Shown one piece after another: positions 27,329 through 56,851 of a stretch of DNA of 56,985 nucleotides. The position numbers and the translations under genes are program-made. How positions within the stretch are numbered: position 1 is the first letter of the stretch; the number at the start of each line of letters is the position of its first letter. Under the pieces are notes generated by a model, which did no database searches, was not told the DNA's origin, and saw only the letters and a program-made list of their open reading frames with translations. Source of the stretch: a virus; IMG/VR virus record IMGVR_UViG_3300033153_003349, positions 1-56,985 of that record, one strand, 5' to 3'.

Positions 27329-27666
27329 GGCATCTCCTCTATTATAAACGTTATTCTATATGACACAGGCGTTATAGGCTTGACGTCAGGAGTATTCTTA
27401 AACCGTACAGCATTAGTAAAGTAAGCCCAATCAAATGTAAGAGAACCTCCCTGTAACGTATTAAGATAAAAATCATTAAACACATCTAATATAGCCACTG
27501 TGGGAACAATAATAGAACAAGACCAATCACTAGTTCCCGCACTAAACCTACGTCTTACTTTAGCTGGACCAATATCCATCTTACTCCGAATACTCTGAGT
27601 CTGAAGCTTTGTACTATGATTACTTATTAAAGGATATTGGGGAAGTGTTACTGGCCAAGTTGACAT
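27325..27666 (-). CDS. minor tail protein (lambda gpM-like)
   Basis: A 113-aa protein starting MSTWPVTLPQYPL, with LQTQSIRSKMDIGPAKVRRRFS and a DVFNDFYLNTLQGGSLTFDW segment. This pattern is common in a family of small minor tail proteins located right after the tape measure. The predicted role is joining the tape measure end to the tip complex. The ATG is part of the TAATG overlap with the tape measure stop at 27666. Confidence 0.75.
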   Translation of the reverse strand: MSTWPVTLPQYPLISNHSTKLQTQSIRSKMDIGPAKVRRRFSAGTSDWSCSIIVPTVAILDVFNDFYLNTLQGGSLTFDWAYFTNAVRFKNTPDVKPITPVSYRITFIIEEMP

Positions 27667-30032
27667 TATCTGACCCCTCTTCTTGAATTATAATTTGTTT
27701 TCATTGTTCTATCCATCGAACCATCAGACATAGCTGCTTTCATCTCACTGCGTATCAAAACTTGAATCTGTCTTTGTCCGTCTGGACCTGTAGACTCAGT
27801 GACTTCTGGAGGTTCTCCTCCTGTCCTTTGGTCGATAATATTAATAACCGTACCACCTATAGACTTTCCTTTAGGAATGACTTGTTCACCTTTTTGTAGT
27901 ATAGCTCTGTACTCATCTGCAAATAAACCATCATGCAATCTGGGTATGCTTCTTTGCCTAAATGAATGTCCTGAACCTTGATGCCCTACTCCGTACCCTG
28001 CGGAAGCGTTTGTTGAATAATGTCTAGTTGCGGAGTCACTAACATTAGTATTATATGAACCATCTACTGTTGGTCCTCCAGGAAATAACCCATTAATAAT
28101 TTTTTGTACAATCATTATTCTTATCATAGATTGCAAAATTTCCTCAAGAACTTTAGTAGCTATCTCCCCTATACCTTCCCAACCTTTAGCAGCAGACATA
28201 AACAAATCAGTAAATCCTTGTTCTACTGAACTTAGAATAACTTGAGTCACTTCCGCCCATCTATCATTTATATCTCTTGTTTTTTCTGCAAACTTTTCTG
28301 CTCCTGCTGTTATCCCATCCCACATTGTTTGGTTGGTTCCCGTCATGCGTTCTAATTTATTCTGTATCTCATCGTAGTCTTTTAAAGCCATAGCTAATTT
28401 ATGATTATATAAAGCACCTTCTTCATTAACCCCGTCTAATAAAGTATTCCATTGTTTCCCTTGGATAAGAATTTCTAATCCTCTATTAGATATACCTGAA
28501 TATTCATTTTTTAATTGTTTAACTCTGACTGTAGCTTCCTTGGTTTTATCATTTAACTCTTCCATCATTCGTTGAAGATCAGTTTTCTTTCCTTTTTTCC
28601 CCATACCACGTTCAGGAGCTTTGCCTGTAGAAAGGTCTCCAAATTCTAATTTGAAAGCTTTTATCTTTTTAAGTGTTTCATCAAATTTTTTCTTTAACTC
28701 TTCAAGACCGCCTCTAAAATCAGTAAAATCTCCTTCCTCAAGACCAGCAAGTTCAATTATAGCATCTTTCACATTTCCTATTTCATCAATTACTCCTCCC
28801 ATAGTATTCTTCATAAGAGACATAGGATTAAGATTAGAAGCTGTTCCAAATAAATTCCACAGTTTAACTATAGGACTATTATTACCAAATTTTACTTTTA
28901 ATAATTGATAGGCTTCTTCTTTCATATCAGCTAATTTTTCTGACATAGTTTGGACAGCCAATGCAGCCATAATAGGTGCAGGGCCAAGAACAATAGAAGC
29001 TATAAGACCTACCGCTTTCACTTCAGGAGGTAATTTATTATAAACTTCTATCATAGGCTTAATTCCATAATTATAAATAGCCATTAATAAAGGACTAAAT
29101 AAATCAATAATAGAAGCTGCTCCAAGAATTATATCAAACAAATTTGCTGCTAATTGCTGAACAAATTTTGTTGTAAAATTAGCAAGGCTATCCATATTAG
29201 ATTCAAAGAATTGCATAAAAACTGTTAACCCTGCTTTCAATCCTGAAAAAAGGTCACCTTCCATTACAGCCCTTTGAAATCTCCACCACCTATCTTTCAT
29301 CATCTCCATGACACCAAACCAGGTACTCATCATAGCTTTAGAAGTTCCTCCGAATCTTTCAGCTAATTCTTCAAAGATAGCATTAAGACCTTCCGTGGCT
29401 GTGATTCCTGTTCGGTTCATATTCTTTAAGGCTTCACCTGTTAATCCTAATTTCTTTTTTAAGATATCATAGATAGGTACACCATGCTCTGCTAACTGCC
29501 TCATCTCTTCACCAGCAATCTTCCCTTTAGATGCCATCTGTCCTAACGCTCTTGATATCCCCTGGAATGTTTGTACGGAACCACCTAAAGCAGAAACAGT
29601 ATCAAGTATAGCTTCCATTTGTTTCTCAGTAGGCTTTAAACCCATTGCTGTTAATTTCCTATACTGATTAACTGCCTCCTCTGTATTTATAGGCATATTC
29701 TTTGCCCACATATCTAATCGATCAAAAGTAGCTTGACCCTTAGCCATGTCTCTTTCAAGACTCATCATTGATATTCTTAATTTCTCTACGGATTCAGCAG
29801 TGTGGAGAAAATCTTTAGCTATTCTGCCTACCATTCTGCCTGCCCTAAAAGCAAGAAAACCCATAGCTCCTGCCATTAACATAGAAGAAGATTTAACTTT
29901 CTTACTTGTCTTAGTCACAGTTTTCCCAAATTTTTCAACTTCTTTCCCTGCCTGTTTAAAGCCCATAACAAGTTGATTATTTTGAGAAGTAATCTTAACA
30001 GCTATGCCACCAATTACATATTCACCAGCCAT
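27666..30032 (-). CDS. tail tape measure protein, 788 aa
   Basis: Determines tail length; it fills the tail tube and is ejected with the DNA. The N-terminal third carries the tape-measure domain signature (LRISMMSLERDMAKGQATFD, AVNQYRKLTAMGLKPTE, and GKIAGEEMRQLAEHGVPIYDIL). Hydrophobic helices occur around 300-370 (AVGLIASIVLGPAPIMAALAV). A coiled-coil runs from about 455 to 600, and a flexible Gly/Ser/His-rich part precedes the C-terminus. A 788-aa helical rod predicts a tail of roughly 110-120 nm at about 0.15 nm per residue. It follows the G/GT chaperones, as usual. Confidence 0.93.
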   Translation of the reverse strand: MAGEYVIGGIAVKITSQNNQLVMGFKQAGKEVEKFGKTVTKTSKKVKSSSMLMAGAMGFLAFRAGRMVGRIAKDFLHTAESVEKLRISMMSLERDMAKGQATFDRLDMWAKNMPINTEEAVNQYRKLTAMGLKPTEKQMEAILDTVSALGGSVQTFQGISRALGQMASKGKIAGEEMRQLAEHGVPIYDILKKKLGLTGEALKNMNRTGITATEGLNAIFEELAERFGGTSKAMMSTWFGVMEMMKDRWWRFQRAVMEGDLFSGLKAGLTVFMQFFESNMDSLANFTTKFVQQLAANLFDIILGAASIIDLFSPLLMAIYNYGIKPMIEVYNKLPPEVKAVGLIASIVLGPAPIMAALAVQTMSEKLADMKEEAYQLLKVKFGNNSPIVKLWNLFGTASNLNPMSLMKNTMGGVIDEIGNVKDAIIELAGLEEGDFTDFRGGLEELKKKFDETLKKIKAFKLEFGDLSTGKAPERGMGKKGKKTDLQRMMEELNDKTKEATVRVKQLKNEYSGISNRGLEILIQGKQWNTLLDGVNEEGALYNHKLAMALKDYDEIQNKLERMTGTNQTMWDGITAGAEKFAEKTRDINDRWAEVTQVILSSVEQGFTDLFMSAAKGWEGIGEIATKVLEEILQSMIRIMIVQKIINGLFPGGPTVDGSYNTNVSDSATRHYSTNASAGYGVGHQGSGHSFRQRSIPRLHDGLFADEYRAILQKGEQVIPKGKSIGGTVINIIDQRTGGEPPEVTESTGPDGQRQIQVLIRSEMKAAMSDGSMDRTMKTNYNSRRGVR

Positions 30033-30382
30033 TATTTTCTCCTGGTTAAAGCTCTGTGCATATCAGTAATGATTTGCTTTAAGTATTCAGTACTTCTTTT
30101 CTTTTTCTTTGGTTTAGCGTTGGGAACAAAATCTCGTAAATCAAAACGAGGCATAAACTTAACAGGGTCAATCTTAGCTTTTTTACCCCCAGCAGAAACA
30201 GCAATAACATGAGCTAACATACCAAAACGAATATCTTGTCTAACAGTACCGAATGGTTCAGTAAGATAATACATTTCCCATTCCGCCATTTCCGTTGCCG
30301 ACATTCTGTTCAACATATCTTCTCTCGTCATTCCTAATGCGAGAGCAAGACGATACTGAAAAATCTTACTCCCGCTTATCAG
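30032..30382 (-). CDS. tail assembly chaperone, T part of the G-T frameshift fusion (DUF4035-like)
   Basis: This region is translated by a -1 ribosomal frameshift out of the G gene, giving a G-T protein of about 252 aa. A plain frame with an ATG at 30331 exists, but the same frame is open upstream to the shift site and encodes LISGSKIFQYRLALALG before that Met. This makes a natural start of the family pattern LALxLGMTREDMLNRMSATEMAEWE. The C-terminus is basic (KPKKKKRSTEYLKQI). The T domain binds the tail tube protein in lambda. There is no ribosome binding site for the ATG at 30331. Confidence 0.85.
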   Translation of the reverse strand: MISGSKIFQYRLALALGMTREDMLNRMSATEMAEWEMYYLTEPFGTVRQDIRFGMLAHVIAVSAGGKKAKIDPVKFMPRFDLRDFVPNAKPKKKKRSTEYLKQIITDMHRALTRRK

Positions 30383-30388
30383 TTTTTT
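30339..30388 (-). promoter_or_regulatory. programmed -1 frameshift signal (slippery heptamer and stem)
   Basis: Coding-strand A AAA AAC (30388-30382) lies in the G reading frame just before its TGA. After a 6-nt spacer (TGATAA) comes a 12-bp stem: GCGGGAGTAAGA (30375-30364) pairs with TCTTGCTCTCGC (30350-30339) over all 12 positions with two G-U pairs and a 13-nt loop. Slippery site, spacer and stem match known -1 frameshift signals. Confidence 0.88.
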
Positions 30389-30789
30389 GCTGTGTTCTCT
30401 TTTGCTTTCTCACCTATACCATTCAATATTGAAGCAACTTCCCAGATTTCATTAACTGCTGTTCCAGCTTTCCGTTCTAATTTTTCTTGGTCTGTATCTC
30501 TGAATAATCTAACACCTTGTTCATCAACAACACAAAGAATCATTAGACGTACTCTTGCTCCTGAGATATCACTTTTAGAATCAACTACCTTACCCTCTTC
30601 ATCTTTAATAGTTTCTGTATGGTCTAGCATATGTTGTTCAAAAGCATCTTTCTCTTTAGCTGTTAAAGTTCTGACTCTAACAGCTTTTCCTCCCCATGCC
30701 TCAACATTAACAACGTCATATTTTAAATCATCAATATTAAATATGTCGCTCTTAGACATGAATTTCTGTGGTGATTTTTCTTTAGTCAT
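30379..30789 (-). CDS. tail assembly chaperone G (lambda gpG-like)
   Basis: A 136-aa protein that in this class of phage coats the tape measure during tail assembly. It contains GGKAVRVRTLTAKEKDAFEQ and ISGARVRLMILCVVDEQG, a pattern common to such chaperones, and ends EKAKENTAKN at a TGA. Most ribosomes should stop here; a minority slip at the A AAA AAC site and continue into the T part. ATG 30789 has GAGGAG about 9 nt upstream. It is placed between the tail tube and tape measure genes, as in lambda. Confidence 0.88.
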   Translation of the reverse strand: MTKEKSPQKFMSKSDIFNIDDLKYDVVNVEAWGGKAVRVRTLTAKEKDAFEQHMLDHTETIKDEEGKVVDSKSDISGARVRLMILCVVDEQGVRLFRDTDQEKLERKAGTAVNEIWEVASILNGIGEKAKENTAKN

Positions 30790-30813
30790 TTTGTACGCTC
30801 CTCAACGTTTAAA

Positions 30814-31497
30814 TTAACCTGTTTGGTCAAACGAGCTTGACCCACTTACTTTCAATGTGACATCAGCTACTACTTTATCAGCAGTAGGAACATTCGGGGG
30901 AATATCTGTCACGATAGCATCAAATTTCCAAGTAGTCGGATTAGCTACATCATCTGGTAAAACAATCTTCCACCGTTTAGGAGATAAGTCTCTTTCAAAC
31001 TTTCTCTTAATAGCAGAATATCCGATGTAACCAAAATTCATTTGGAAAGAAGCCTCTCCACCGTCTTTAAGACCAGAGATAAATTCACGATAAAAATCTG
31101 TACTACCCATGTGAGTAGTATCTACGGTTTCTTTAGTAGGACTTACAGGAACGATGTCATTAATTTCTCCGAGTTCTGCCCAGATTTCATCTTCGTCCAC
31201 TAATGTAATTTCCCCACCAGATACCCAATCACCATAAAGAGTTGAATCAATAGCTACATCTCCTGGAGTAAGAATTTCAAAAGTAGTCGATGTCGCATTG
31301 GCTACTTTGTATAAATTACCATTTAACTCTACCATACCTACAACGTCTTCAATGTAGATAATCATATCATCTACAATGTCGCCTATATCATCAACTCCAA
31401 TCACACATTGTGCTGCTTTAGTAGCACTCGTGATTAAATTTAATCCATAGGTGTCATAGTATAGTTTGGTTCCGATTCCCAAAAAAGCATTAGACAT
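30814..31497 (-). CDS. major tail tube protein with inserted FCCH-like domain
   Basis: A 227-aa tail tube protein. The outer parts (MSNAFLGIGTKLYYD at the start; TVDTTHMGSTDFYREFISGLKDGG and KRWKIVLPDDVA through VADVTLKVSG at the end) follow the common tube-protein fold. Residues about 28-98 (IGVDDIGDIVDDMIIYIEDV, then MVELNGNLYKVANATSTTFEI, then WVSGGEI) look like an inserted small beta domain. It resembles the FCCH-type repeat seen in other phage virion proteins. The inserted domain probably faces outwards on the tube. ATG 31497 has AAGGAGG upstream. Confidence 0.85.
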   Translation of the reverse strand: MSNAFLGIGTKLYYDTYGLNLITSATKAAQCVIGVDDIGDIVDDMIIYIEDVVGMVELNGNLYKVANATSTTFEILTPGDVAIDSTLYGDWVSGGEITLVDEDEIWAELGEINDIVPVSPTKETVDTTHMGSTDFYREFISGLKDGGEASFQMNFGYIGYSAIKRKFERDLSPKRWKIVLPDDVANPTTWKFDAIVTDIPPNVPTADKVVADVTLKVSGSSSFDQTG

Positions 31498-37336: not shown

Positions 37337-38862
37337 TATCTTTTGCCTTGCCTTGCTCTTACTACTTCACTGACAGGATTATTTCTATCCTCTACTGGGA
37401 GTGTTCCTTGGTCTAACTCCATTTTCTTTAAATCAGCTTCCATTTGCTTTTCTTCTTTTTCAAGTTCTTTGGCTCTTTCTTCTCTTTCCTTTTCAATCTT
37501 TTTCATTATATCAGGAGTAACACCTAAAAACTCAGTAAGAAAAACATTGGGAGGAAGAATATCTTCAGAGCCTTCTGCTCTTGAATAATTAGCGAGTGAC
37601 TCTGTTTGTATTCTGACTAAATTTGCTTTGTCTTTCGCACTAGGTAAATATATATCAGGCCATTCGACTACATATGCTACATCAGGAACAATTTCATATT
37701 CTTGTAAATGATTAACAAATGCTTTTAATATCCATGGGTCTGCAAAATCTTCTCGTCTTTCATCAACAGCACTTCTCCAATTTTTATCATCTTGTTCTGA
37801 AGAAGCCTCTCCTCCTCCGCTACCCGTCAATAACCTTATTGGCATCTTTGTTGTTCCTGCTACTATACTTAATAATACTTGATAATGGTCTGCTGGAGAA
37901 GATAACTGAGGAGTTATACTATCAACACTAATTCCTTGTAACTTTAAATACCGTCTGAGTCCGTGCATAAACTCATCAATTTCTACACCCATTTGAGCAC
38001 GCTTTTCATCAGTTAATTCTGCATCTGCATCAGCATTAAAAGCTAAACCAAAGAAAGCTCCTTGCCAATACATCTCCGCAGAACCTCCAACTACTTTCTG
38101 TATATCAAGAAAACGATTAAATATTGCTTGCAAAGCAGGGATACCAAATATATCATCTTCAAGTAATCCTTCTGCTACATGGAGAACTCTTGAAGCATGA
38201 ACTAATGCTTTTGCTGGAAGATTTGATTTTCTAGGAATACCCCCAGGTATGGCTGCTATATCTGTGGTACTAAAAGTTATCTCATAAATTTCAGGCTTGC
38301 CGTAGTTGTCACTTCGTTTATCTGTATTATACGCTTTAATCTCTGCATGGTTCTGACCTCTTGGAAGTAAGTATAGTAACTTAGCTTTTTTAGTAAGAGG
38401 TTTTTTCAAAGAACCTGTATCTTCAGTTACATCATTAAAGCCCATATATAATGCAGCATACTCACCTATACGACTTAATTTATCAACTCTATTAAAGTAA
38501 GAATAAATTTTTTGTTCCTCAACTAGAGTTGTCCATGCCTCATTAAATTTATTACTTTCTTCAAATTTCTTTTCTTTTTCATACACAAGAGGTTTATCTC
38601 TCCAAGTAGCATCTGGGTAAGCATCTATAACTCTTGAAGCTAAATCCCCTCTTTTATAAAGGTCATAAAAATATTCATAAATTAACCTAGTAGGGTACCC
38701 AAGTGATTCATAATAATTTCGTTTACCATCAAACCCCATAAGACCTGAATCCATCATAGCTCTTAAATCCATACGAGGAATTAATGTAGATTCATTAGCT
38801 GCCATAGCCTTCATAGTTAATGAATCTTTTACATCTCTTGGGTTTATTACTCTTGTTTTCAT
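37336..38862 (-). CDS. portal protein (DUF1073 family)
   Basis: A 508-aa portal: the dodecameric ring through which DNA enters. The DUF1073-type pattern includes YEYFYDLYKRGDLASRVID, ALYMGFNDV, IYEITFSTTD, VHASRVLHVAEG and LTGSGGGEASSEQDDKNW. The C-terminal about 60 residues are a charged coil (IEKEREERAKELEKEEKQME). I start at ATG 38862, in a TAATG overlap with the terminase stop; an in-frame TTG at 38868 is less likely. It lies between terminase and the minor head protein, as is usual. Confidence 0.9.
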   Translation of the reverse strand: MKTRVINPRDVKDSLTMKAMAANESTLIPRMDLRAMMDSGLMGFDGKRNYYESLGYPTRLIYEYFYDLYKRGDLASRVIDAYPDATWRDKPLVYEKEKKFEESNKFNEAWTTLVEEQKIYSYFNRVDKLSRIGEYAALYMGFNDVTEDTGSLKKPLTKKAKLLYLLPRGQNHAEIKAYNTDKRSDNYGKPEIYEITFSTTDIAAIPGGIPRKSNLPAKALVHASRVLHVAEGLLEDDIFGIPALQAIFNRFLDIQKVVGGSAEMYWQGAFFGLAFNADADAELTDEKRAQMGVEIDEFMHGLRRYLKLQGISVDSITPQLSSPADHYQVLLSIVAGTTKMPIRLLTGSGGGEASSEQDDKNWRSAVDERREDFADPWILKAFVNHLQEYEIVPDVAYVVEWPDIYLPSAKDKANLVRIQTESLANYSRAEGSEDILPPNVFLTEFLGVTPDIMKKIEKEREERAKELEKEEKQMEADLKKMELDQGTLPVEDRNNPVSEVVRARQGKR

Positions 38863-40358
38863 TACCAAGTACCTGCTTTCTTAGTTTTGAATAATCCGTT
38901 AAAAGCACCTATAAAAGCAACAACTATATCATCATGGACAGTTTCTGGAAAGTCCTCAATCTCTTTTAAGAATTGATAGTTCCATTTGCCTTCAATAATT
39001 TTTATGTTATTTGCTTTAGCTTGGGCTGCCACAGGTCTAACCATCGCCTCAGTCTTTGTTATCTTTGGCTTTGCTTTTGCGTTATACCCTAATAATTTTC
39101 TGATTAAATGTTGCACTTCGGTTTTCCCACTAGCTGCTGGTTCTTGCTCTAAATGAATATGGGTTCTTTGTGTATCTTGTTTGGCTGTATTTAAAATCCT
39201 GGTTTCAACTATTCCTGGGTTCTCCCTAAAACGTACCATGTCATGTACGTACAAAAACCCATCATAATCTATACTCATCTTAATGCCTACTGTCCAGTCA
39301 GGGTCAGGATTCTTTTCACTCTTTGCTGTGGCTGCTCTATCCCAAAACCTTACTGTCTTTTTCATCCTTGCAGGAAGCGCAGGAAGGATTTCAAACATAT
39401 CCTTTTTAAAATACATACCCGCACTTGGTCTGACATTCCAGTTACCTTTGCGTAACCGCATGAAGTCAATATAACCTAAAGAATTAAGATTAGCAACATA
39501 AGATGGGTCTTTTTCGATTAACTTTTTATTGTCTTCCAGACGAGCATGAATGAATGTTATTGTCTTTACGTTCTGGTCGATAGCTTCTTGGAATGTAACT
39601 TCGTAGCTCTTAGAGTATAGTTCTAAATAATCATTCCATATATCTAATAGCTCATCCATTGTGTTATACTGATTCCATTCGCCTTTATCTACAATCATAA
39701 AACGAACAATCCCACAACGTTCTTTGATTACATACCCATCTGTTTCTTTATTATCGGGAGTATCATATATCCACCAGTCAATTAGCTCTCTTACAAACGA
39801 ATCAGGGTCAGGATTACAAGTAGCCCGTACCAACCCACGGACACCAGACATAGACCTGTTTCTTGAAAGTAAATAAGTAAACTGGGTTTTAGTAAAATGT
39901 GTTAATTCATCAAATCCGATGTAAGCATAAGCCCCGCCCTGGTGGTCAAGTTTATTCTTCTCATGCTCTAAATGTGAAAAGGTTATTTTTGCTATAACCT
40001 TTTCTTGTTTTTCATCTGTATGAAATCTCCACTGCAAATCCGAAACTCGCATCTCAGCATTATCAAAATTAGAATACATTTCAATAGCACCGTCCCACAA
40101 ACCTCCTGGAGTCTTAATCTGCTTAGAAGTACGTCTAAATATGATAGCATCAAAACTAGGAATACCTACATAAGCTAAAGGAATAAACTCAAGACCCCAA
40201 GATTTACCTCCTCCTGCCTCACCTCCATATATAACTATGTCGGCAAGAGAAGCCACGAACTCTGTCTGTGGACCTTCCTGGGGTTCTATTATCTCAACAT
40301 CTTCCCCATAGTCCTGGACGTCAGTTTCATATTGTATTACTTGGGCAGCGACACTCAT
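38862..40358 (-). CDS. terminase large subunit
   Basis: The 498-aa packaging motor. The ATPase part has Walker A GGEAGGGKS (about 45-53), the arginine-rich IIFRRTSKQ, Walker B AYAYIGFDELTHF and motif III RATCNPD. The nuclease part has FWDRAATAKSEKNPDPDWT with the expected acidic residues, then EQEPAASGKTE and a late HDDIVVAF. It uses the head end of the gene order next to the portal. No small terminase gene is visible upstream, where the lysis amidase stands instead. ATG 40358 directly follows the amidase stop. Confidence 0.95.
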   Translation of the reverse strand: MSVAAQVIQYETDVQDYGEDVEIIEPQEGPQTEFVASLADIVIYGGEAGGGKSWGLEFIPLAYVGIPSFDAIIFRRTSKQIKTPGGLWDGAIEMYSNFDNAEMRVSDLQWRFHTDEKQEKVIAKITFSHLEHEKNKLDHQGGAYAYIGFDELTHFTKTQFTYLLSRNRSMSGVRGLVRATCNPDPDSFVRELIDWWIYDTPDNKETDGYVIKERCGIVRFMIVDKGEWNQYNTMDELLDIWNDYLELYSKSYEVTFQEAIDQNVKTITFIHARLEDNKKLIEKDPSYVANLNSLGYIDFMRLRKGNWNVRPSAGMYFKKDMFEILPALPARMKKTVRFWDRAATAKSEKNPDPDWTVGIKMSIDYDGFLYVHDMVRFRENPGIVETRILNTAKQDTQRTHIHLEQEPAASGKTEVQHLIRKLLGYNAKAKPKITKTEAMVRPVAAQAKANNIKIIEGKWNYQFLKEIEDFPETVHDDIVVAFIGAFNGLFKTKKAGTW

Positions 40359-42282: not shown

Positions 42283-42658
42283 TTTTAATTTTCCTTTCTA
42301 TCCACTTGTATATTCTGATTATAGCTTCATAAACTCTAACAAATATACTATGTTTTAGGTACCATTTAAAGGATTTAATTTCTTCTTGCCAAAATAACGA
42401 ATGAATCACATCAAATCCTATCAAGTGCATAATTAGATAATGCCATATAAAATCCCAATCATTTGTCTCGTAACCATACAAGCATAGGACACTCATACCA
42501 GCTATCCATTTAATTATCTTTGCTTGAATTCTTAAATTCTTTATCCAATCATAATCTGCTAAAGGAGCCATCATTCTTGAATATCGAGAATCATGAAAAG
42601 CTAATCCGATAATAAAAACAGCAGCTACATAATATCTATATATAATCAAGTATTCCAT
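42275..42658 (-). CDS. membrane protein, 127 aa
   Basis: Contains about three hydrophobic stretches (YLIIYRYYVAAVFIIGLA, IKWIAGMSVLCLYGY, WHYLIMHLIGFDVIHSLF) and a basic C-terminus (RIYKWIERKIKNV). ATG 42658 lies in the TGATG overlap with the fibre stop; a TTG at 42664 is in frame. Start of the lysis cassette. It might be a second holin or antiholin; the sequence does not decide. Confidence 0.6.
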   Translation of the reverse strand: MEYLIIYRYYVAAVFIIGLAFHDSRYSRMMAPLADYDWIKNLRIQAKIIKWIAGMSVLCLYGYETNDWDFIWHYLIMHLIGFDVIHSLFWQEEIKSFKWYLKHSIFVRVYEAIIRIYKWIERKIKNV

Positions 42659-45600
42659 CAACAAATCCCTTCATCTTCTATAGTAATCACTTCCGCTGTA
42701 TCTTCCACAACAATTATCTCTGGGACAAAAATCTTTACTTCCATACAAATAGAATTAAAATTTCCTAAGATAAGGAACGTTCCATTCAATGTACCTACAC
42801 CCTCCAACAATCCTGATAACTGTCCTATAGATTTAGCATCACTAGTTAGTGTTCCTGCCCCTGAAAAACTTGAAGACAAACCACCAACACCTACCAGCCC
42901 AGCAAGTAATTCTCCTGCACCAACTAAATCGGATGATAAAACCCCAACAGATTTTAAATCACCAGTAAGAGTACCCACCCCTGCTAATACAGTTGATAAA
43001 ATGCCTTCAACAGAACTATCTGATAATGTCCCAGTAAGATTACCTATCCCTTCCATAAGCACTGATAACAATCCAGTAGATTTTACATTACCAGTCAGTG
43101 TTCCCACACCTGCCATAATAACAGCTAAACCACCAGACCCATCGACAAGTATCCCAGTCAATCCTCCTACACCATCAAGACTTGATATTAATATCCCTAT
43201 ACTTTTTAAATCACCAGTAAATGTTCCTACACCATCAATAGTAATAGACAATTCACCTACACCATCTAAACTACCTGTTAACTCACCTATTCCATTTATA
43301 GTAGCTAATAATCTACCTATACCTTTCAAATCTCCTGTGTAAGTTCCAACTCCATTAGCAGTAAGAGACAATACTCCAACAGATTTAGCATCACCTGTCA
43401 GTGTTCCGATTCCTGCCATTATTGTTGATAGAGCATCTTCAGCATCATTATATAAAGTACCTGTTAAATCACCAAGACCTATTAAAGTAGATAACAATTC
43501 ACCTAATCCTTTAAGGTCTCCAGTGTAAGCTCCTACACCATCTGTACTCATAGATAATGCACCCACACTTTTAACATCACCAATCAATGCCCCTATACCA
43601 TTAGCAGTAAGAGACAATACGCCTACTGATTTAGCATCGCCAGTTAATCCTCCAATACCAGCCATTACAGTAGATAAAGCATCTATGAAAATATATTCAT
43701 AAGCACCTATATCCCAATTATCTCCCTGTGGTCTAGATACCCCATCAATATCATCATCAAATAAACCAGATAAATCTACTCCATTATTAACTGGAGGACT
43801 CTCAGCATCATTTGGTTTATGACTAGAATTTAAGTCGGGGTCAATTTCATAACCATTAGCACCTGGAGTAGGAGCATTAGCAACGTCTGCATCAAACCAA
43901 ATATTATAATCTACATTCTCAGTCCATGCACCAGTTACATTCAACATCGGAGCATCAGTTGTAGTGCATACTACTATATTATTCTTAAAATTAAGAGTGC
44001 ATCCAGACAAACTTGTATCAAATACCGTTACGTTGCCTTGTATCTGACTACCCGCAAGAATTGTATTATTATAAATATTTATAGTTGTATTTGCCTGACA
44101 AGTTTTAAATTTGATTAATGCTTTAACATAATCGTGACCATTAATTACATTATTATATACACTCCAAGTTCCAGACGCATCTTCTAAAAATACGCCTTGT
44201 GAATCAACTGGGTCGGTATTATCTAAATCAAAATAATTATATCTTATAATGCCATTACCACCAGCAGTTCCTTGATTTCTTTGAAAAGCATCGTTATGAC
44301 CAGAACCACTATTTAATATTCTAATGGTGGAATACTCTAAGATAATATTAGTATTCGCCTGAACTTGCATACCATCAGTTTGATTACTACTATTGGTAAC
44401 TGTTGTAAAATCGTAATATCTGATTGTGATATTGGTATTATCAAATATTCTCATTCCAATAGTCTCAGAGTCGTGGTATTTGATATGGTCAATAGTTACA
44501 TTGTCGGTATGTTCACATCGTACTGCATAGGTGGTAGGGTCTGTAACAGTCATACGAGACACTGTGACATAATCTGGTCCGGGATCAAGATCAATACCAT
44601 AATCCCTTGTACCTTCACCATCAATGATCACTTCTCCATCGTGGTCTTGGTCTATTCCTTTTTTAATTGTAATTAGGTTCCCTGCTGTACCACTGGCTGT
44701 TGGGGTCAGAGTTTCTAAGTAAGTTTTTGAAGTACTACCTCCTGAAATATAGACTGTATCGGCAGGAGATACAGAACCCCAATTTATATCAGCGAAAGAT
44801 TCCCATGCGTTAATCCATGAGGTTCCAGCGTTTGTTCCTGTTGCACCATTATCTACATACCAATTTGTTCCTGCGCTTTCAAAAACACCAGTTAAAGAAC
44901 CAACACCATCAGTAAGTAAAGACAACACACCAACAGATTTAGCATCACCAGTTAATGAACCAATCCCAGCCATAGTAGTTGATAAGTTTCCTGCTACTCC
45001 TGTTCCTAAAGTTCCTGATAATCCCCCTGTTCCTGCCATTGTAGTTGATAATATGCCTACGGATTTAGCATCACCAGTTAAGGAACCAACCCCTGCCATA
45101 GTTGTAGAGAGAGCATCATCACCACCTAAATCCTCAATAGAACCAAAAGTAATAAACCCAGCCGTATTAAAAAAGTTGTCGTGGTTTGCAGAAACCCAAT
45201 CCGCATTTCTATCTATACTATGAATTCTAAATTCAGCAATTTCTATATCGGAACAATTACTGGAACTGCTTTGTCCTGTGGCTAAATACCATACATCATT
45301 TGATATACTATTAGCATCTGTGTTTGTGCCGTCTGCAACACCATCCATATAATATTTTAATTCGTCTGTTCCAGTACCTTCTCTAACAGCAACCGCATGA
45401 TGATAATTTATTGAATCAGGCCAGAGAGAATCTGCTGGTCTATCATCACCACTATATACACCCCAATAAGTATTAGCATCATCTAACTTGAGGTTAAAAC
45501 TTGGTGAGTATTGTCCATTCCCAAAAATACCTTCCCAAGTATTACCATTATCAGATATACGTTTTACCAATGCTTCAAAAGTATAATTTCCCGTTCCAAT

Positions 45601-47370
45601 CCCATGAGCAACTGTTGATGCTGACCTTTGAATATCGTTCCCATCAAAATAAGAATACCTGCCTATTGGTCCACCAATTTGATTATTTTGTGCATCACCC
45701 AAAGTAACTGTTGTGAAGTTAATTCCATTAGAAGTTCTATCATTCCAATCTCTAAAAGCTATTACTGTCTCATGGTATTGGTCGTAAGCATTATATTGAC
45801 CATAGGTTGAATCTACCGCTGGTTTTGTAGCTCCGACTTTCCCCCACCACATATATATAATCGTATCAACAGTTGAAGAAACTGCTGGTATTTTAACAGC
45901 TATTTCAAGAATACCATTAGCAGGAGTATTATCAGGAACACACGCCCGTATATCAACAGGAATTTCAGTTGTTCCTGCTGAATCAGATGTAAACCTAATA
46001 TCATTACCACCACTAATCATAGACCTTGTACCATCGGCATCCAATGGTCCATTTACTTGTGTTAATACGGAATCATAATCTTCATCAAATACTAAGGTCC
46101 AATTAGACAGATTAGAACCTATATCATCACTCTCAATAGTTATAGGAATCTTAAATAACCAACCAGTAGGAAAAGAAGCCCCATCACCCAAAGTGCCTGT
46201 TAAAGAACCAACTCCTGCCATTGTGGTTGATAAAACTCCAACAGACTTTACATCACCTGTTAAAGAACCAATTCCTGCCATTGTGGTTGATAAGGCATCA
46301 TCACCGTCTAAATCCTCAATTGTACTAAAAGTTAAAAACCCAGCTATATTAAAAAAGGATTTGTAGTTAGCATTTTGCCAAGAAGCACTTCGGTCTGTTA
46401 GATGAATCCTTGCCTCTGAAATGCTAACATCTCCACCATATTTCCCAGTCGTATTCCTGCCTGACCCTAAGTGCATTTGAAGGTCATCTCTTACGGTATT
46501 GCTATTACTATCAGTACCATCAGCAGACCCATCATGATAAAATAAAATTTCATCATCCCCTGTACCTATTCTTGTTGCAAATTGATGATGATAATTTGCA
46601 TCAAAAGGCCAATACCAACCCGACTGCAAATTGGATGTATTAATATTTATACCAGAGGACTGAGAGTTTATCTCCTGAAACACACCTATTCCACCGTATG
46701 ACTGCCCCATCCAGCCCTGATATGTTTCCCCTGTATCTGTATCTCCTAAAAGAACACCCTCAACTGAAAAATTGCCCGTTCCTATACTTTGAAACGAAAA
46801 ATCCTCTGTTGTTCTTTGAACATCACTCACTGTAAATACACTTTGACGACCAAGTGGTCCACCAGTTTGTGCTATTAATGGTGTCCCATAATAATCATCA
46901 TCAAAATCAACACCATAACTTGTTCTATCAACCCAAGTACGCATATCCATAACCATAATATGGTCAGCATCATACGCATTGTATTGACCATAGGTAGCAT
47001 CAACAGCAGGTTTTGTAGCCCCTGCCTTACCCCACCAAAAGTATATAACTGTATCTACTGTACTGGAAACAAAAGGAACTTTGGCTGCTATCTCAAGTTC
47101 CCCATTAGCTGGTGTGTTATCTATCACTGCTGTTCGTATATCAACAGGAATTTCGGTATTGCCATCCGTATCGGTACTCATACGAATATCATTACCGCCA
47201 TTAATCATGGAACGGGTTCCATCGGCATCCAATGGACCATCGACCTGTGTAAATACAGAATTAAATGCTTGGTCAAATACTAATGTCCAATCAGTTAAAT
47301 CGGCAGATACATCAGTACTTTCAATAGTTATAGAAAGTCTATGCTTATACCCATCAGCAAGGAGGCCCAA
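42658..47370 (-). CDS. 1570-aa fibre with DUF2341-like modules, beta-helix and glycine repeats
   Basis: An adhesion or structural protein built from modules. Residues about 5-345 and about 400-745 are two copies of a DUF2341/LamG-like beta-sandwich (YKHRLSITIESTD and FKIPITIESDDIGS; both have YFWWGK- or YMWWGK-type sites and TKPAVD). About 830-1225 is a right-handed beta-helix-like region (YGIDLDPGPDYVTVSRMTV). Three blocks of repeats, consensus LSTTMAGVGSLTGDAKSVG, join and follow the modules. TTG 47370 is the likely start; no in-frame ATG lies near, and GGTGG precedes it. It is encoded upstream of the lysis cassette. Ends with an acidic tail. Confidence 0.82.
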   Translation of the reverse strand: MGLLADGYKHRLSITIESTDVSADLTDWTLVFDQAFNSVFTQVDGPLDADGTRSMINGGNDIRMSTDTDGNTEIPVDIRTAVIDNTPANGELEIAAKVPFVSSTVDTVIYFWWGKAGATKPAVDATYGQYNAYDADHIMVMDMRTWVDRTSYGVDFDDDYYGTPLIAQTGGPLGRQSVFTVSDVQRTTEDFSFQSIGTGNFSVEGVLLGDTDTGETYQGWMGQSYGGIGVFQEINSQSSGININTSNLQSGWYWPFDANYHHQFATRIGTGDDEILFYHDGSADGTDSNSNTVRDDLQMHLGSGRNTTGKYGGDVSISEARIHLTDRSASWQNANYKSFFNIAGFLTFSTIEDLDGDDALSTTMAGIGSLTGDVKSVGVLSTTMAGVGSLTGTLGDGASFPTGWLFKIPITIESDDIGSNLSNWTLVFDEDYDSVLTQVNGPLDADGTRSMISGGNDIRFTSDSAGTTEIPVDIRACVPDNTPANGILEIAVKIPAVSSTVDTIIYMWWGKVGATKPAVDSTYGQYNAYDQYHETVIAFRDWNDRTSNGINFTTVTLGDAQNNQIGGPIGRYSYFDGNDIQRSASTVAHGIGTGNYTFEALVKRISDNGNTWEGIFGNGQYSPSFNLKLDDANTYWGVYSGDDRPADSLWPDSINYHHAVAVREGTGTDELKYYMDGVADGTNTDANSISNDVWYLATGQSSSSNCSDIEIAEFRIHSIDRNADWVSANHDNFFNTAGFITFGSIEDLGGDDALSTTMAGVGSLTGDAKSVGILSTTMAGTGGLSGTLGTGVAGNLSTTMAGIGSLTGDAKSVGVLSLLTDGVGSLTGVFESAGTNWYVDNGATGTNAGTSWINAWESFADINWGSVSPADTVYISGGSTSKTYLETLTPTASGTAGNLITIKKGIDQDHDGEVIIDGEGTRDYGIDLDPGPDYVTVSRMTVTDPTTYAVRCEHTDNVTIDHIKYHDSETIGMRIFDNTNITIRYYDFTTVTNSSNQTDGMQVQANTNIILEYSTIRILNSGSGHNDAFQRNQGTAGGNGIIRYNYFDLDNTDPVDSQGVFLEDASGTWSVYNNVINGHDYVKALIKFKTCQANTTINIYNNTILAGSQIQGNVTVFDTSLSGCTLNFKNNIVVCTTTDAPMLNVTGAWTENVDYNIWFDADVANAPTPGANGYEIDPDLNSSHKPNDAESPPVNNGVDLSGLFDDDIDGVSRPQGDNWDIGAYEYIFIDALSTVMAGIGGLTGDAKSVGVLSLTANGIGALIGDVKSVGALSMSTDGVGAYTGDLKGLGELLSTLIGLGDLTGTLYNDAEDALSTIMAGIGTLTGDAKSVGVLSLTANGVGTYTGDLKGIGRLLATINGIGELTGSLDGVGELSITIDGVGTFTGDLKSIGILISSLDGVGGLTGILVDGSGGLAVIMAGVGTLTGNVKSTGLLSVLMEGIGNLTGTLSDSSVEGILSTVLAGVGTLTGDLKSVGVLSSDLVGAGELLAGLVGVGGLSSSFSGAGTLTSDAKSIGQLSGLLEGVGTLNGTFLILGNFNSICMEVKIFVPEIIVVEDTAEVITIEDEGIC
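42775..43685 (-). repeat. C-terminal array of about 60-bp repeats in the 1570-aa fibre gene
   Basis: Around 15 tandem units of about 20 codons with consensus LSxxMAGVGxLTGDxKSVG. Shorter blocks of the same unit lie at about 44885-45115 (after the second DUF2341 module) and about 46190-46300 (after the first). Gly, Thr and hydrophobic positions are fixed; DNA is diverged between units. Confidence 0.85.
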
Positions 47371-48977: not shown

Positions 48978-51761
48978 TTATTTGCCTATCATAAATATAG
49001 ATAAAGTAACATCTCTCAATATTAAATTTCTTGAATTTGTAGTTGTGGTTCTTGCCCACAATTCCACTGTATCACCAATAGCCAAATCAACTATTCCAGA
49101 AGCATGCATAGAACCAACATCTGCTACTGTTCCTATTGCCCTTTCTGTGTGAACATTCGTTTTTCCCGTTGCTCCATCATTTACAAATAATTGTATTTCA
49201 AAAGTTGTAGACACAGTGCCAGTCACAACCATAGATACATTCACCATATATTTACCAGCAACAAGTATTGTTAAATGATCATTAGTATGATCGGGTGTTA
49301 CCCCCTCTGATAACCCATCAGTATCAAAATACAAAAATTGATACCAAATATCCTTTGTACTCAATACAGTAGAAGAACCATTTTCAAGAACAGTTAATTC
49401 ACCATAACAAAGGTTTAATGCTTTAATATTTTCATGTATATATTTACCACCAACGGAACTTGTAACACCATTAAAAAGTAATTTAGAAACCTCCCCCTCA
49501 TAAACAATACCATCGTAAACGATATTAACTAAATGTTGTCCACTCAATAACTCCGTACCCCAAAAATTAAGATATTCATCTGGAACTAAATCATTAAAGA
49601 ATGAAAGTTTGCCAGATGGTATATTAAACTGAATAAAATATAAATGATCCACACCACTCATTGTATATGAATGATAAAGGACATCATCAACATAGAGCTT
49701 AAAATCATTTCCTTTTTTATCTAATGTTAATTTTACTTCTGAACCAACATCTATTCCTGTTGCTACAATTGATGATGCAAGAGAATCTGTTTCTAATTCT
49801 AATTCCCCTGAATATTTCAATCTATAACTTATAAATTCATTAAAAGGATCACTTGAAAAAACAATGTAAGAACTATTTAAACCACCAACACTTAAATCAA
49901 TAAAATAACCACCATTAAAATTTATAAATTCTTTTCCCGATGTTACTGGTGTGATATCATAACCAGAAGCATCAATATTAAATTCTAATGTGTTCTCAAA
50001 TACAGCTTCCCTGACATCTTGCTTATCAGAATTTAAAGCAAATAGTTCACCTTCCTGAACATCAACTATTGGGAAATTATCAACCAACGTAACAGCTTTA
50101 TCAATCTTAGAATCTATCTTTTCATTTACAGTAGTCGTATCATCATAAGCAACTAAATCACCTGTTGTTTTGATATTTTTATGTTCTGCAAAATAATCTG
50201 CTCTATACCACGCACTTAATTGAGGTGCTGGTTGTTGCTCCATTACAACACCTTCTACTGAGATAAATTTAAAAAGATTATCTCCTATTACAGCAGAGTC
50301 ACCAGATTCTTGTTCATAAGTGCAGTTAAGCCAATCACCCATCAAATAAAACACATCTCCTGCTGTTCCTTTAACATCAATACCTTGAGGGTCAGTAGGG
50401 GCTTCACCTGTTAAATCATCTGTGTGGATTAATACATCATCTTGATAAACAGTAAAAACTTCTCCTGTTTTTCTGAGTTCTATTTTAACAATACTCTCAT
50501 TAATATAAGAACCTATAACAACATCAGTAACATTATGAGTAGAATAAACAATTTGATTATTATATGTACGAATCCAAATAAAATAATTTAACCCAAAAAC
50601 AATATCTGTGAATGCTAAAGTTCCTATTTTTTGTATATCATTTAATCTCATCTTTATTGTTGACGACCAATTAGTTACTCCCGCTAAAGTTGTTACTCGA
50701 TATGTTGTATGGTTGTCTCCTTCAACCAATTCCAACATTACCGCATCTTCTTGAATTACTTCTCTGACATCCTGCTTATCAGAATTTAAAGCATACAACT
50801 CACCTTCTTCCACACCAGAAGTAGGGAAATTATCAACTAAGTTTACTTTAGCTAATGCTTTGATATTTTTATAAGTAATTGATTTTATATATAAGGAATA
50901 ATCTCCTGCCCAAATAAAACTATCATAGCCTGCAAGATCATTATAAACAACCCCATTTAAATCTATTTGAGTAATTGGGTTATTATCAATATTATCAATA
51001 TTAATTAAATCATCTAAAAATATTACAGGAGAACCAGACCCCGTAGTAAACCTAAGTTCATTTAACTTATGGTGACTGACATCAAGAGTAGCAGTATGTT
51101 TTAATACCCCATCCACATAAATTTTAACTTCCAACCCTATTTTCACAAACGACAATAAAAATTCCTGATCTTCTGGATAAGCCCCACTTTCAACAACCAA
51201 ATCACCATTATCAATTATTTTACCCTGTCCTCCAACATTTATATAATAGATACCCCCAAGACCATCACCAAATGTTATTTTAAAAGATTGAGTAAACCCA
51301 AGATAAGCTGGCATATAAAGTTTAACACTAAATGTGGCATTAATTTGATCTGGAGAATCTGTGTGGGAAAACCGAGCTTCTTGATCTGAATCTAAAGAAA
51401 ATATTTTAACATATTCAATATCTGTAACTTCTTTTACATTCTGTTTATCAGAATTAAGAGCATACAACTCCCCCTCTTGAACATCAACAACTGGGAAATT
51501 ATCAACCAACTTAACTTTGGCTGGTAAATCTATAGATGTAAAGGTTATAGTAACATACTGAGTACCATCCCATACATACCTCTTAGTCATATTACCAGCA
51601 TCTACATCAGACTGTAATTGGATAGCCTGTCCTTTTACTCTACTATCAATAGGAATATCATTTAAAGTATTTAAAATAGTGTCAGCATCTAAAGGTGAAT
51701 CCCCAGCAGCATATAACCCCGCTTGTATTGGGGTGGCCTTATCTCTAAAATCATTTACCAT
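48978..51761 (-). CDS. modular tail fibre, 927 aa, with C1q-like C-terminus
   Basis: Three repeats of about 225-250 residues. Each has a marker segment (LVDNFPVVDVQEGELYALNS, LVDNFPTSGVEEGELYALNS or LVDNFPIVDVQEGELFALNS, followed by DKQ-V-E) and then a LamG/concanavalin-like beta-sandwich with EVKIYVDGVLKH- or DFKLYVDDVLYH-type sites. The C-terminal about 140 residues (YFDTDGLSEGVTPDHTNDHL, VAGKYMVNVSMVVTG, LFVNDG) resemble a C1q/TNF-like trimeric head used for receptor binding. N-terminal region about 1-90 likely attaches to the virion. ATG 51761 has GAAAGG upstream. Sugar or protein binding is an inference from the folds. Confidence 0.8.
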   Translation of the reverse strand: MVNDFRDKATPIQAGLYAAGDSPLDADTILNTLNDIPIDSRVKGQAIQLQSDVDAGNMTKRYVWDGTQYVTITFTSIDLPAKVKLVDNFPVVDVQEGELYALNSDKQNVKEVTDIEYVKIFSLDSDQEARFSHTDSPDQINATFSVKLYMPAYLGFTQSFKITFGDGLGGIYYINVGGQGKIIDNGDLVVESGAYPEDQEFLLSFVKIGLEVKIYVDGVLKHTATLDVSHHKLNELRFTTGSGSPVIFLDDLINIDNIDNNPITQIDLNGVVYNDLAGYDSFIWAGDYSLYIKSITYKNIKALAKVNLVDNFPTSGVEEGELYALNSDKQDVREVIQEDAVMLELVEGDNHTTYRVTTLAGVTNWSSTIKMRLNDIQKIGTLAFTDIVFGLNYFIWIRTYNNQIVYSTHNVTDVVIGSYINESIVKIELRKTGEVFTVYQDDVLIHTDDLTGEAPTDPQGIDVKGTAGDVFYLMGDWLNCTYEQESGDSAVIGDNLFKFISVEGVVMEQQPAPQLSAWYRADYFAEHKNIKTTGDLVAYDDTTTVNEKIDSKIDKAVTLVDNFPIVDVQEGELFALNSDKQDVREAVFENTLEFNIDASGYDITPVTSGKEFINFNGGYFIDLSVGGLNSSYIVFSSDPFNEFISYRLKYSGELELETDSLASSIVATGIDVGSEVKLTLDKKGNDFKLYVDDVLYHSYTMSGVDHLYFIQFNIPSGKLSFFNDLVPDEYLNFWGTELLSGQHLVNIVYDGIVYEGEVSKLLFNGVTSSVGGKYIHENIKALNLCYGELTVLENGSSTVLSTKDIWYQFLYFDTDGLSEGVTPDHTNDHLTILVAGKYMVNVSMVVTGTVSTTFEIQLFVNDGATGKTNVHTERAIGTVADVGSMHASGIVDLAIGDTVELWARTTTTNSRNLILRDVTLSIFMIGK
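50014..51509 (-). repeat. dispersed 74-bp repeat (three copies) in the 927-aa fibre gene
   Basis: Copies at 50014-50087, 50767-50840 and 51436-51509 share most bases and encode the LVDNFP...EGELxALNSDKQ segment. Spacing is about 753 and 669 bp. DNA identity is much higher than in the intervening beta-sandwich parts. Confidence 0.85.
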
Positions 51762-53666: not shown

Positions 53667-55244
53667 TTAAGGATTAGAAAAGTTAAGTTCGTCTGGAGCA
53701 TTCAACGGGAAATTAAGTCCAGTGTTTTCAGTTATAGTAAATTCTCCTTCAACCCACTCAGCACCGTCAAGACCCATACCGACAAGAATAATAATTGCAT
53801 CAGTTCCAGGTGTTCTTCCTCCCTGAATGTTTCCTGCGTAATCAAAGGTAAAAGCTATTGTTCCAGTAGCAATCGCTCCAGTAATATCAGCATCCCCATC
53901 ATCTTTAACAAGGAGAGCCGTGGCACTATCAAATGCGTTTCCGTTTGCATCTTTAAAGTACATCCAATATTTAGCATTAGTATCATCTATAAGAGCCTGA
54001 TTAAATACCATGTTCCCCGCAGATATGAACGGATAGGTTCTTAACGTAGAAGTAATAGGAACATCTTCAGAATCAAGACCTCCTCCATCTACTGTAATAT
54101 CATGTAGCTTTATCTTGTCCGTAAAATTTGGGTCGAAGTCATCAAAGCAAACTCCATCCCATCCATGAAGGTCTGTACCAATAAAATAAGAAAGACGAAC
54201 AGCAACATTCCCATTTACCACCCCATACCCAAGAGTTTCACCATCATCATTAATATCATTAGTCTGTCTGTTCTTATTTTGAGTAAAAGCATAATTTTGT
54301 TCGGTATCAGCTTTATTTGTTGGATTAGAAACAACTGCTCTATTAAAAGCATAATAACCAGTACCAACTTGTCTTTCTCCTTCATAAGCTACAAATGTTC
54401 CTGTTCCACCTTCATTTGTATAATCAATAACTCCTGCTGCATCAAGAGTACCAGGAACAGAACATCTAAACCAACGGTCAGCCTCGTCTTGGCCCACCTC
54501 ATCTTGTGTATAAGATTTTTCTGCTGCGGATTCAAAAGTATGTCCTATATAATATTGAAGCTCCATTGATTGAAAAGGCTCATTCGCTCCTTCCACATAA
54601 GTATCATCGTAAGTAGGATTCATTGAGTTATCAGTCGAATTAGCCAAAGGCAAACGATATGCAATATATGTTAATGCTGAATACCCCTGCTCTTTAAGTA
54701 TATCATATTCATCATAAGTCTTTAACTCCTCACGAAGGAAAGCCTTATTATAAGTACGGAAATCATTAACACCTTCATCGTTAATCTGAATAGCCTCGTT
54801 TAGCTGTCCAGTAGAACCGAAGGGAACAGCCGTTTCAGTAAAACCAGCTGCCGTGGTATAATACCCTTGGTCAACGTCATCATCATCAAATGTGCCTAAC
54901 GAAATGAAACAAGCCCATTCATCAAGGTCTACTTCTTGCCACCCTGCATCACGAAGTAAATCTCTTGTTGTTGCGTCAGCCCAAGTCCAACTATTCCTAA
55001 TTACATACTTTGCTTCATAAATAGGTTTAATTGGGAACCGATACCTGTTCAAGAATAAACCAGAATCAAGTCTCCACTCCTCTTTACTAAATGAATACAT
55101 AGCTTGTAAGGCTACCCCCGAAGCAGAGCGTGGGGCTGTATCTGTCAAATTCCCTGCTGCTATCAACTGCATTGTTTTTGAACCAGGAACAAATACTACT
55201 TCTACTCCTTGATTCAACTGGTCAGGATCAACTATTTTTGGCAT
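53667..55244 (-). CDS. virion structural protein, 525 aa
   Basis: Begins MPKIVDPDQLNQGVEVVFVP and contains strand-rich repeats of the type YYTTAAGFTETAVPFGSTG and YFIGTDLHGWDGVCFDDFDP. The N-terminal 120 residues (SFSKEEWRLDSGLFLNRYRF) match a pattern of large phage virion proteins encoded next to fibres. The C-terminal part has an Ig-like look. No enzymatic motif seen. ATG 55244 has AAGGAG upstream. Function is unknown; size and neighbours suggest a tail or capsid surface protein. Confidence 0.72.
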   Translation of the reverse strand: MPKIVDPDQLNQGVEVVFVPGSKTMQLIAAGNLTDTAPRSASGVALQAMYSFSKEEWRLDSGLFLNRYRFPIKPIYEAKYVIRNSWTWADATTRDLLRDAGWQEVDLDEWACFISLGTFDDDDVDQGYYTTAAGFTETAVPFGSTGQLNEAIQINDEGVNDFRTYNKAFLREELKTYDEYDILKEQGYSALTYIAYRLPLANSTDNSMNPTYDDTYVEGANEPFQSMELQYYIGHTFESAAEKSYTQDEVGQDEADRWFRCSVPGTLDAAGVIDYTNEGGTGTFVAYEGERQVGTGYYAFNRAVVSNPTNKADTEQNYAFTQNKNRQTNDINDDGETLGYGVVNGNVAVRLSYFIGTDLHGWDGVCFDDFDPNFTDKIKLHDITVDGGGLDSEDVPITSTLRTYPFISAGNMVFNQALIDDTNAKYWMYFKDANGNAFDSATALLVKDDGDADITGAIATGTIAFTFDYAGNIQGGRTPGTDAIIILVGMGLDGAEWVEGEFTITENTGLNFPLNAPDELNFSNP

Positions 55245-55261: not shown

Positions 55262-56851
55262 TTATGGATTACTATATGTTGGGTCTGCTACTAAAGCTCC
55301 TGGTACTGATTTATCTCCTATTAATAATGTATAAGAATAATAACTACCTATTTCTGGGTCATAATCAAGATGAATAAACAATAAGTCAACAACAACACCT
55401 ACTTCAGCAGAACCAAAACTATATAGCACATCTCCACTTGAATTATCTACACGATACATCTCTGACCTATCAGATACTTTTATAATTGAAACTGCTGTAT
55501 TTGTCGGCAATCCTGTAATAGTTAATGACGATGGTGATAATAATGTAATTAGCCCAGGGTTCTCATTTTTATATTGAGCATTAGATGTTCCACTATTTCC
55601 TACCTCTATTGTATTAGCTTGAGTATTTTCTATATCATAACTACTTATTCCATCTGTACCAGAAAATGTAATATCATACAAAGTAATATCTATATCTGCT
55701 GAAACTGAAATCCCATTATCTGTGGGACTAATAATATCTCCGTACTTGACATTGAATGTAGCACTAGATACGGTAAATACATCTGAACTTGCTAGAATAC
55801 TTTTCCATCTTTCAATTTTAAACGTATTACAAGTAATCACTCCATGGTTAACAAATTGTGTACTAATAGATTCAAAATTTGCTCCCGTTAACGTAGGCCA
55901 CTTAATTGTTCCTACATCATTGAATGACCCTCCATAAACTTGTAATTTATCTATATTAGCATCATCAAAGTCAACAGTACATAAATTAGTAGAACCTAAA
56001 TCATATATTTCAACTCCAGCTAATCCATCACTACCAGACAAAGTTCCAGCTACATAATTAGTGGTTGTACTTGTGTGACCTACTACATTCCACTTATACA
56101 GGGTAGACAACCTATTTGAGTTAGTTCCATCTCCTAAATAACTAGCTTCAAAAAATACCTTAGAATTAGTGTCTACAAAGTCAACGTGCAGAGTACCAGC
56201 AGAAGAACCCCATATAATTCCTGTACGAACTACATATACATCAGGAAGTAATTCAACAAACAAGCCGTATCTATTTGAAAGAGTAGCATCCCAATCAGCT
56301 AGCTCCTTACAACCAATTGCATCAGAAACACCCGATGTGATAGAATATTCATCAAACATAAATAAATTATCAAACCAGACATTTTCTTTAATAGCCTTGG
56401 ATGTTGTTTTGAACTGTACTCCCATGTATCTATGAATAGATGGGTCATAAGTCCCAGAAGATGCTTGAGCCGTTGCTCCTTCATGTACTGTATATACTTG
56501 AAACCCATTATAGGCTATATTACTTGTATCATAACCCCCAACGTAAAAAGTCTTTGAATTCCCGTTTATATCTTCAAGGATGATTCTTACACCGCCGTTT
56601 ACTCTTGAATCAAATGCACCCGCTACAAACCCAAGAAAACCAAAATGCTTGTCCGTTACATCAACACCGCCTGCTCCACCTTGGTCATACTGTGCTACTG
56701 AGGAAGTAGTGTTGGATACTTTTAATTTAAGGGAACCAGGAGTACCCCCGCCTTCAGCATAAAGGTCAGTATCTAGTAAACCAGTACCGCCGTCCATTCC
56801 ATCGGAATCACAATCAAATATTTTAGTTACGCCTGTAGGAGCAATAGCCAT
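55262..56851 (-). CDS. virion structural protein, beta-rich, 529 aa
   Basis: Starts MAIAPTGVTKIFDCDSDGMD; the first 180 residues form a beta-sandwich of LamG-like appearance (DKHFGFLGFVAGAFDSRV, HRYMGVQFKTTSKAIKENVW). The middle (about 190-420) has short repeating strands, possibly a beta-helix (VDFDDANIDKLQVYGGSFND). The C-terminal part has a small domain with YSYTLLIGDKS. ATG 56851 follows AGG and lies 5 nt after the preceding stop. Probably a virion surface protein; the family is not recognised. Confidence 0.7.
   Translation of the reverse strand: MAIAPTGVTKIFDCDSDGMDGGTGLLDTDLYAEGGGTPGSLKLKVSNTTSSVAQYDQGGAGGVDVTDKHFGFLGFVAGAFDSRVNGGVRIILEDINGNSKTFYVGGYDTSNIAYNGFQVYTVHEGATAQASSGTYDPSIHRYMGVQFKTTSKAIKENVWFDNLFMFDEYSITSGVSDAIGCKELADWDATLSNRYGLFVELLPDVYVVRTGIIWGSSAGTLHVDFVDTNSKVFFEASYLGDGTNSNRLSTLYKWNVVGHTSTTTNYVAGTLSGSDGLAGVEIYDLGSTNLCTVDFDDANIDKLQVYGGSFNDVGTIKWPTLTGANFESISTQFVNHGVITCNTFKIERWKSILASSDVFTVSSATFNVKYGDIISPTDNGISVSADIDITLYDITFSGTDGISSYDIENTQANTIEVGNSGTSNAQYKNENPGLITLLSPSSLTITGLPTNTAVSIIKVSDRSEMYRVDNSSGDVLYSFGSAEVGVVVDLLFIHLDYDPEIGSYYSYTLLIGDKSVPGALVADPTYSNP

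Follow-up and report, generated by a model that had tools for sequence, protein, structure and literature searches.

A predicted lambda-type G/GT tail assembly chaperone pair joined by programmed -1 ribosomal frameshifting in an environmental phage

The IMG/VR virus contig analysed here, taken over its whole length of 56,985 nt (positions 1-56985, referred to as the window), encodes, with little room for doubt, a lambda-type pair of tail assembly chaperones, G and G-T, which, judged from the sequence, would be produced by programmed -1 ribosomal frameshifting. A preliminary description of this DNA had proposed the same reading, and it is supported by the gene order, the protein families, the slip site, the open -1 frame and a downstream hairpin. 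The predicted signal and the genes around it consist of the following elements.

30379..30789, minus strand: G, predicted tail assembly chaperone, zero-frame product of 136 aa
30382..30388, minus strand: slippery heptamer A AAA AAC in the G frame, from direct sequence and the same heptamer in relatives
30379..30381, minus strand: G stop codon TGA, immediately 3' of the heptamer, from direct sequence
30032..30382, minus strand: T domain read after the -1 shift, 116 residues, completing the 252-aa G-T fusion
30329..30331, minus strand: ATG that a plain annotation would choose as the start of T (99 aa), probably not the real start
30339..30375, minus strand: 13-pair hairpin, putative and probable frameshift stimulator, from RNAfold, shuffles and synonymous resampling
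30814..31497, minus strand: tail tube protein, upstream neighbour (PF16461 and phrog_158)
27666..30032, minus strand: tape measure protein of 788 aa, downstream neighbour (PF20155 TMP_3, E 3.4e-24)

The 3' end of G reads GCA AAA AAC TGA, and direct inspection bears out the claim that a slippery heptamer lies at 30388-30382 just before the TGA. The -1 frame, which encodes T, is open from 30409, upstream of the heptamer, to a stop codon ending at 30032. A lambda-type G/GT frameshift is characterised by an X XXY YYZ heptamer towards the 3' end of the G frame and by a T frame at -1 that is open back to the slip site, and both are seen here. The products, which had been predicted at 136 and about 252 aa, were computed to have 136 and 252 aa, with calculated masses of 15.4 kDa for G and 28.8 kDa for the -1 fusion. 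A plus-strand open reading frame of 141 aa (30392-30817) runs antisense to G and displaced it in the greedy ORF listing, in which it was the sole plus-strand frame kept. As all other frames kept in this listing are on the minus strand, the antisense frame is very probably spurious; being 5 aa longer than G, it could lead automatic gene callers astray.

The protein families are those expected for such a pair. G belongs to a tail assembly chaperone family by its match to phrog_344 (E 3.9e-24), and its Pfam match to PF06222 Phage_TAC_1 reaches 24.5 bits, half a bit short of the cut-off of 25. T belongs, like lambda T, to PF06223 Phage_tail_T (54.7 bits, cut-off 25.9), and a single 224-aa profile, phrog_14766, spans both G and T. 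The order is tail tube, G, T, tape measure, so that two overlapping frames lie between the tail tube and tape measure genes. Thus, the gene order and family pattern invoked earlier hold by Pfam and PHROG matches to G, T and their neighbours. No solved structure related to G by sequence was found.

Elsewhere in the window, the large terminase subunit (38862-40358, minus strand) is nearest to those of Rhizobium phages and archaeal Methanoculleus viruses, with about 41-42% identity. Three minus-strand frames of 1570, 525 and 529 aa (42658-47370, 53667-55244 and 55262-56851) had no PHROG match at E up to 1e-5 and no Pfam match at E up to 1e-3. A fourth of 927 aa (48978-51761, minus strand) showed a weak, sub-threshold match to the BclA C-terminal domain near its C-terminus and is perhaps a fibre or surface protein. 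The window has no terminal repeats of 15-299 bases, no tRNA and no Rfam match.

A heptamer of this kind could in principle occur by chance, and the G+C content of 36% makes such heptamers not impossible in this genome. Across the 17,942 codon positions that the ORFs of the window have outside G, A AAA AAC stands in frame once; X XXY YYZ heptamers of any kind are found at 0.6% of positions. By simple arithmetic, an overlap of about 10 codons would be expected to hold some heptamer in about 6% of cases and A AAA AAC in about 0.06%. The case rests on the position of the heptamer and its conservation, not on the heptamer alone, and conservation is the stronger argument.

Conservation was assessed by scanning viral and genome contigs with a degenerate DNA pattern that encodes the T motif E-W-x-x-Y-x-x-x-E-P-F-G and by verifying the matches with an HMM derived from eight T domains. 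This resulted in 153 distinct loci, and at 147 of them an upstream frame of 80 codons or more is present; these and the following three counts include the window itself. T overlaps G in the -1 frame at 141 of the 147 loci, and the overlap holds an X XXY YYZ heptamer in 138 of these 141 and A AAA AAC in 108 of them. The remaining six loci look, at least in part, like wrong choices of the upstream frame by the script; in one of them, AAAAAAC can be seen past the stop that the script had picked. The distance from the heptamer to the F-x-F-R-L-A residues of T is 8 codons in 87 of 110 non-redundant relatives, 7 codons in nine, which is the class of the window, and 9 codons in another nine. Scans of viral contigs with single proteins (T, G, major capsid protein and tape measure protein) found no close relatives.

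Among named phages, tblastn with the fusion retrieved 27 phage records, all with less than 60% identity. As in the window, A AAA AAC followed by a stop ends G in Psymv2, AbIPP1 and Pmp1; in Mcat7 the stop after this heptamer comes one codon later, Mcat15 has A AAA AAG, and Dubu and phiSASD1 have G GGA AAC. In all seven phages, T is in the -1 frame and open back to the site. G and T are annotated as joined genes in Dubu, phiSASD1 and Jflix2 and separately in several others, e.g. Psymv2 and lambda. Four further phages, Madraxi, REQ1, Shagrat and P1312, lack an X XXY YYZ heptamer in the last part of G, though their T is at -1 and overlapping. They read TCTTTC or GATTTC where Jflix2 has GGGTTTC, and they may use a non-canonical slip site.

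These substitutions also bear on the mechanism by which the frames are joined. The slip site of the window is a run of A, which could suggest transcriptional slippage on the six-A run in place of ribosomal slippage. Six A are short for efficient slippage of RNA polymerase. The occurrence of G GGA AAC in relatives also speaks against transcriptional slippage, since this heptamer preserves the tRNA re-pairing of X XXY YYZ but contains no long homopolymer. Furthermore, the final C of the heptamer is kept in most relatives, and a downstream hairpin at ribosomal spacing would be left unexplained. Transcriptional slippage is therefore regarded as highly improbable, and ribosomal slippage is the reading followed below.

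Another way to obtain a T protein would be separate initiation at the ATG at 30331 through coupling to, or reinitiation after, termination of G, in which case the heptamer would be coincidental. An ATG is indeed present 48 nt past the G stop, and the separate annotation of G and T in phages such as Psymv2 and lambda fits this possibility. Earlier, this ATG had been described as having no binding site. This holds in so far as no Shine-Dalgarno match is found at a workable distance; it needs amending in that an AGGA is present, which abuts the ATG without spacing. G and the tape measure gene have AGGAG at 8 and 6 nt, respectively. Since several other genes of the window also have no Shine-Dalgarno sequence, its absence at this ATG is weak evidence by itself. 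The relatives are more informative. The residues LISGSKIFQYRLALALG are correctly given in the preliminary description as preceding Met 30331 in the T frame. T residues ahead of the ATG (F-x-x-R-L-A-x-x-L-G) are conserved in all relatives, and the match of T to phrog_337 begins at residue 7, ahead of this Met. An ATG within the first 22 T codons is found in only 32 of the 110 non-redundant relatives, which argues that separate initiation is not the route of this family into T. Together with the nearly fixed distance between heptamer and T, this makes the slip site, and not the ATG, the conserved entry to T. With residues conserved upstream of an ATG that is not itself conserved, an independent start of T is extremely unlikely.

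Entry into T by a ribosomal -1 shift may be stimulated by RNA structure. The heptamer is followed by a spacer of 6 nt (TGATAA) and then by GCGGGAGTAAGA, which can form 12 pairs with TCTTGCTCTCGC, 10 of them Watson-Crick and two G-U, confirming the stem and spacer proposed earlier. RNAfold adds one further G-U pair, resulting in 13 pairs with an 11-nt loop and -19.2 kcal/mol. This hairpin is more stable than dinucleotide shuffles (z -2.9; two of 200 shuffles fold as well) and than synonymous codon resampling (z -4.1). No Shine-Dalgarno-like stimulator is present 5-20 nt upstream of the heptamer in the window; among relatives, 80 were observed against 65.5 expected (n=113).

With its nearest relatives below 60% identity, the hairpin of the window is not open to column-wise covariation, and because the register of the helix varies among relatives, a null of synonymous codons was used in its place. 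The 59 nt after the heptamer were compared with synonymous resampling of the T codons. Across 105 relatives, which are not fully independent, and with a rough codon null, the folding of this region is stabler than the null predicts (mean z -1.38, p 3e-13); the 34 relatives in which the stop directly follows the heptamer have a mean z of -2.25. An uninterrupted helix of at least 8 pairs that links the R-L-A codons to the bases preceding F occurs in 23 of the 105 relatives against about three expected, with the best register picked per sequence in the observed and null sets alike. The hairpin tendency is strongest where the stop directly follows the heptamer. The preliminary description had made the persistence of heptamer and stem in relatives a check on the frameshift. 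The heptamer is indeed kept at 138 of the 141 surveyed loci with the -1 overlap and in Psymv2, AbIPP1, Pmp1 and Mcat7, whereas the stem is a significant tendency that not every relative shows.

The small number of such helices and their variable register could be taken to mean that the frameshift is real and the hairpin a mere by-product of codon choice without a role. This is unlikely given the excess of folding stability over synonymous resampling, both in the family and in the window, and the surplus of long helices. The stem is probably a recurrent, non-universal element under selection, as the resampling suggests. We tentatively propose, at somewhat less than even odds, that in the branch with A AAA AAC plus stop the hairpin that covers the R-L-A codons of T has been selected as a recurrent part of the signal, forming a two-part variant of the lambda signal that would compensate for a heptamer that is weak in bacteria.

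The anatomy of the site, the protein families and the conservation of slip site and -1 relation are read directly from sequence. From these elements we infer that ribosomes slip in vivo, how efficiently they do so, what the hairpin contributes and that both proteins act as chaperones. Most ribosomes would translate G and terminate at the TGA at 30381-30379. A minority would pause at the hairpin while tRNA-Lys occupies AAA and tRNA-Asn occupies AAC; the two tRNAs would slip back by one base and re-pair on AAA AAA. Reading would then continue with CTG ATA AGC through T to 30032, yielding the 252-aa fusion. It counts against this scheme that A AAA AAC is reported to shift less readily in E. coli than A AAA AAG does (PMC5009743). 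In lambda, low-level -1 frameshifting yields G and GT at about 30:1 (molar ratio); the tape measure protein is bound by G and the tail tube protein by the T part, and neither of the two chaperones remains in the virion (PMC5009743). By analogy, the tape measure protein would be coated by many copies of G and few of G-T, with the T domain recruiting the tail tube protein.

For one environmental phage, this amounts to an annotation correction, with T as part of a joined 252-aa G-T product and not a 99-aa gene. The survey adds more than 100 G-T overlaps from metagenomes that show almost no variation in the slip site or in its distance from the T motif. Frameshift predictors could be trained on this clean set, and it could serve to test under which conditions signals of this type rely on a hairpin.

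The arrangement as such is ordinary and textbook, being already known from lambda and many relatives; the hairpin in the subgroup with a stop after A AAA AAC is the sole point of mild interest left. Closest in anatomy are Psychrobacter phage Psymv2, Acinetobacter phage AbIPP1 and Pasteurella phage Pmp1, which share the A AAA AAC followed by the G stop and the -1 frame open to the site, but whose T proteins are only about 28 to 30% identical and are annotated as separate genes. The Streptomyces phages Dubu and phiSASD1 share the overlap, the -1 relation and a heptamer right before the stop, annotated there as a joined product, and differ in the heptamer itself, G GGA AAC. With dnaX-type signals, which have a stem-loop 5-8 nt after the heptamer, the window has in common its 13-pair stem-loop at 6 nt, but not an upstream Shine-Dalgarno-like stimulator; the window signal is not filed under the dnaX type, and the comparison concerns the mode of working only.

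The gene order is the same as in lambda, where T likewise overlaps G and is joined to it through a -1 shift close to the 3' end of G, which is predicted here from sequence. Lambda T scores 54.1 bits with the same PF06223 model, against 54.7 bits for T of the window. In contrast, lambda G belongs to PF06894 and G of the window to Phage_TAC_1/phrog_344, and the lambda heptamer, G GGA AAG, differs from A AAA AAC. A further difference is the stop directly after the heptamer followed by a strong, simple hairpin. In the account given in PMC5009743, the programmed -1 frameshift of lambda goes back to Levin, Hendrix and Casjens (1993) and Xu, Hendrix and Duda (2004). For a tail chaperone cluster, 7% frameshifting has been measured by others (PMC3711429), and the heptamer of the window, A_AAA_AAC, is also the g-t shift site of the haloarchaeal virus HCTV-2 (PMC5009743).
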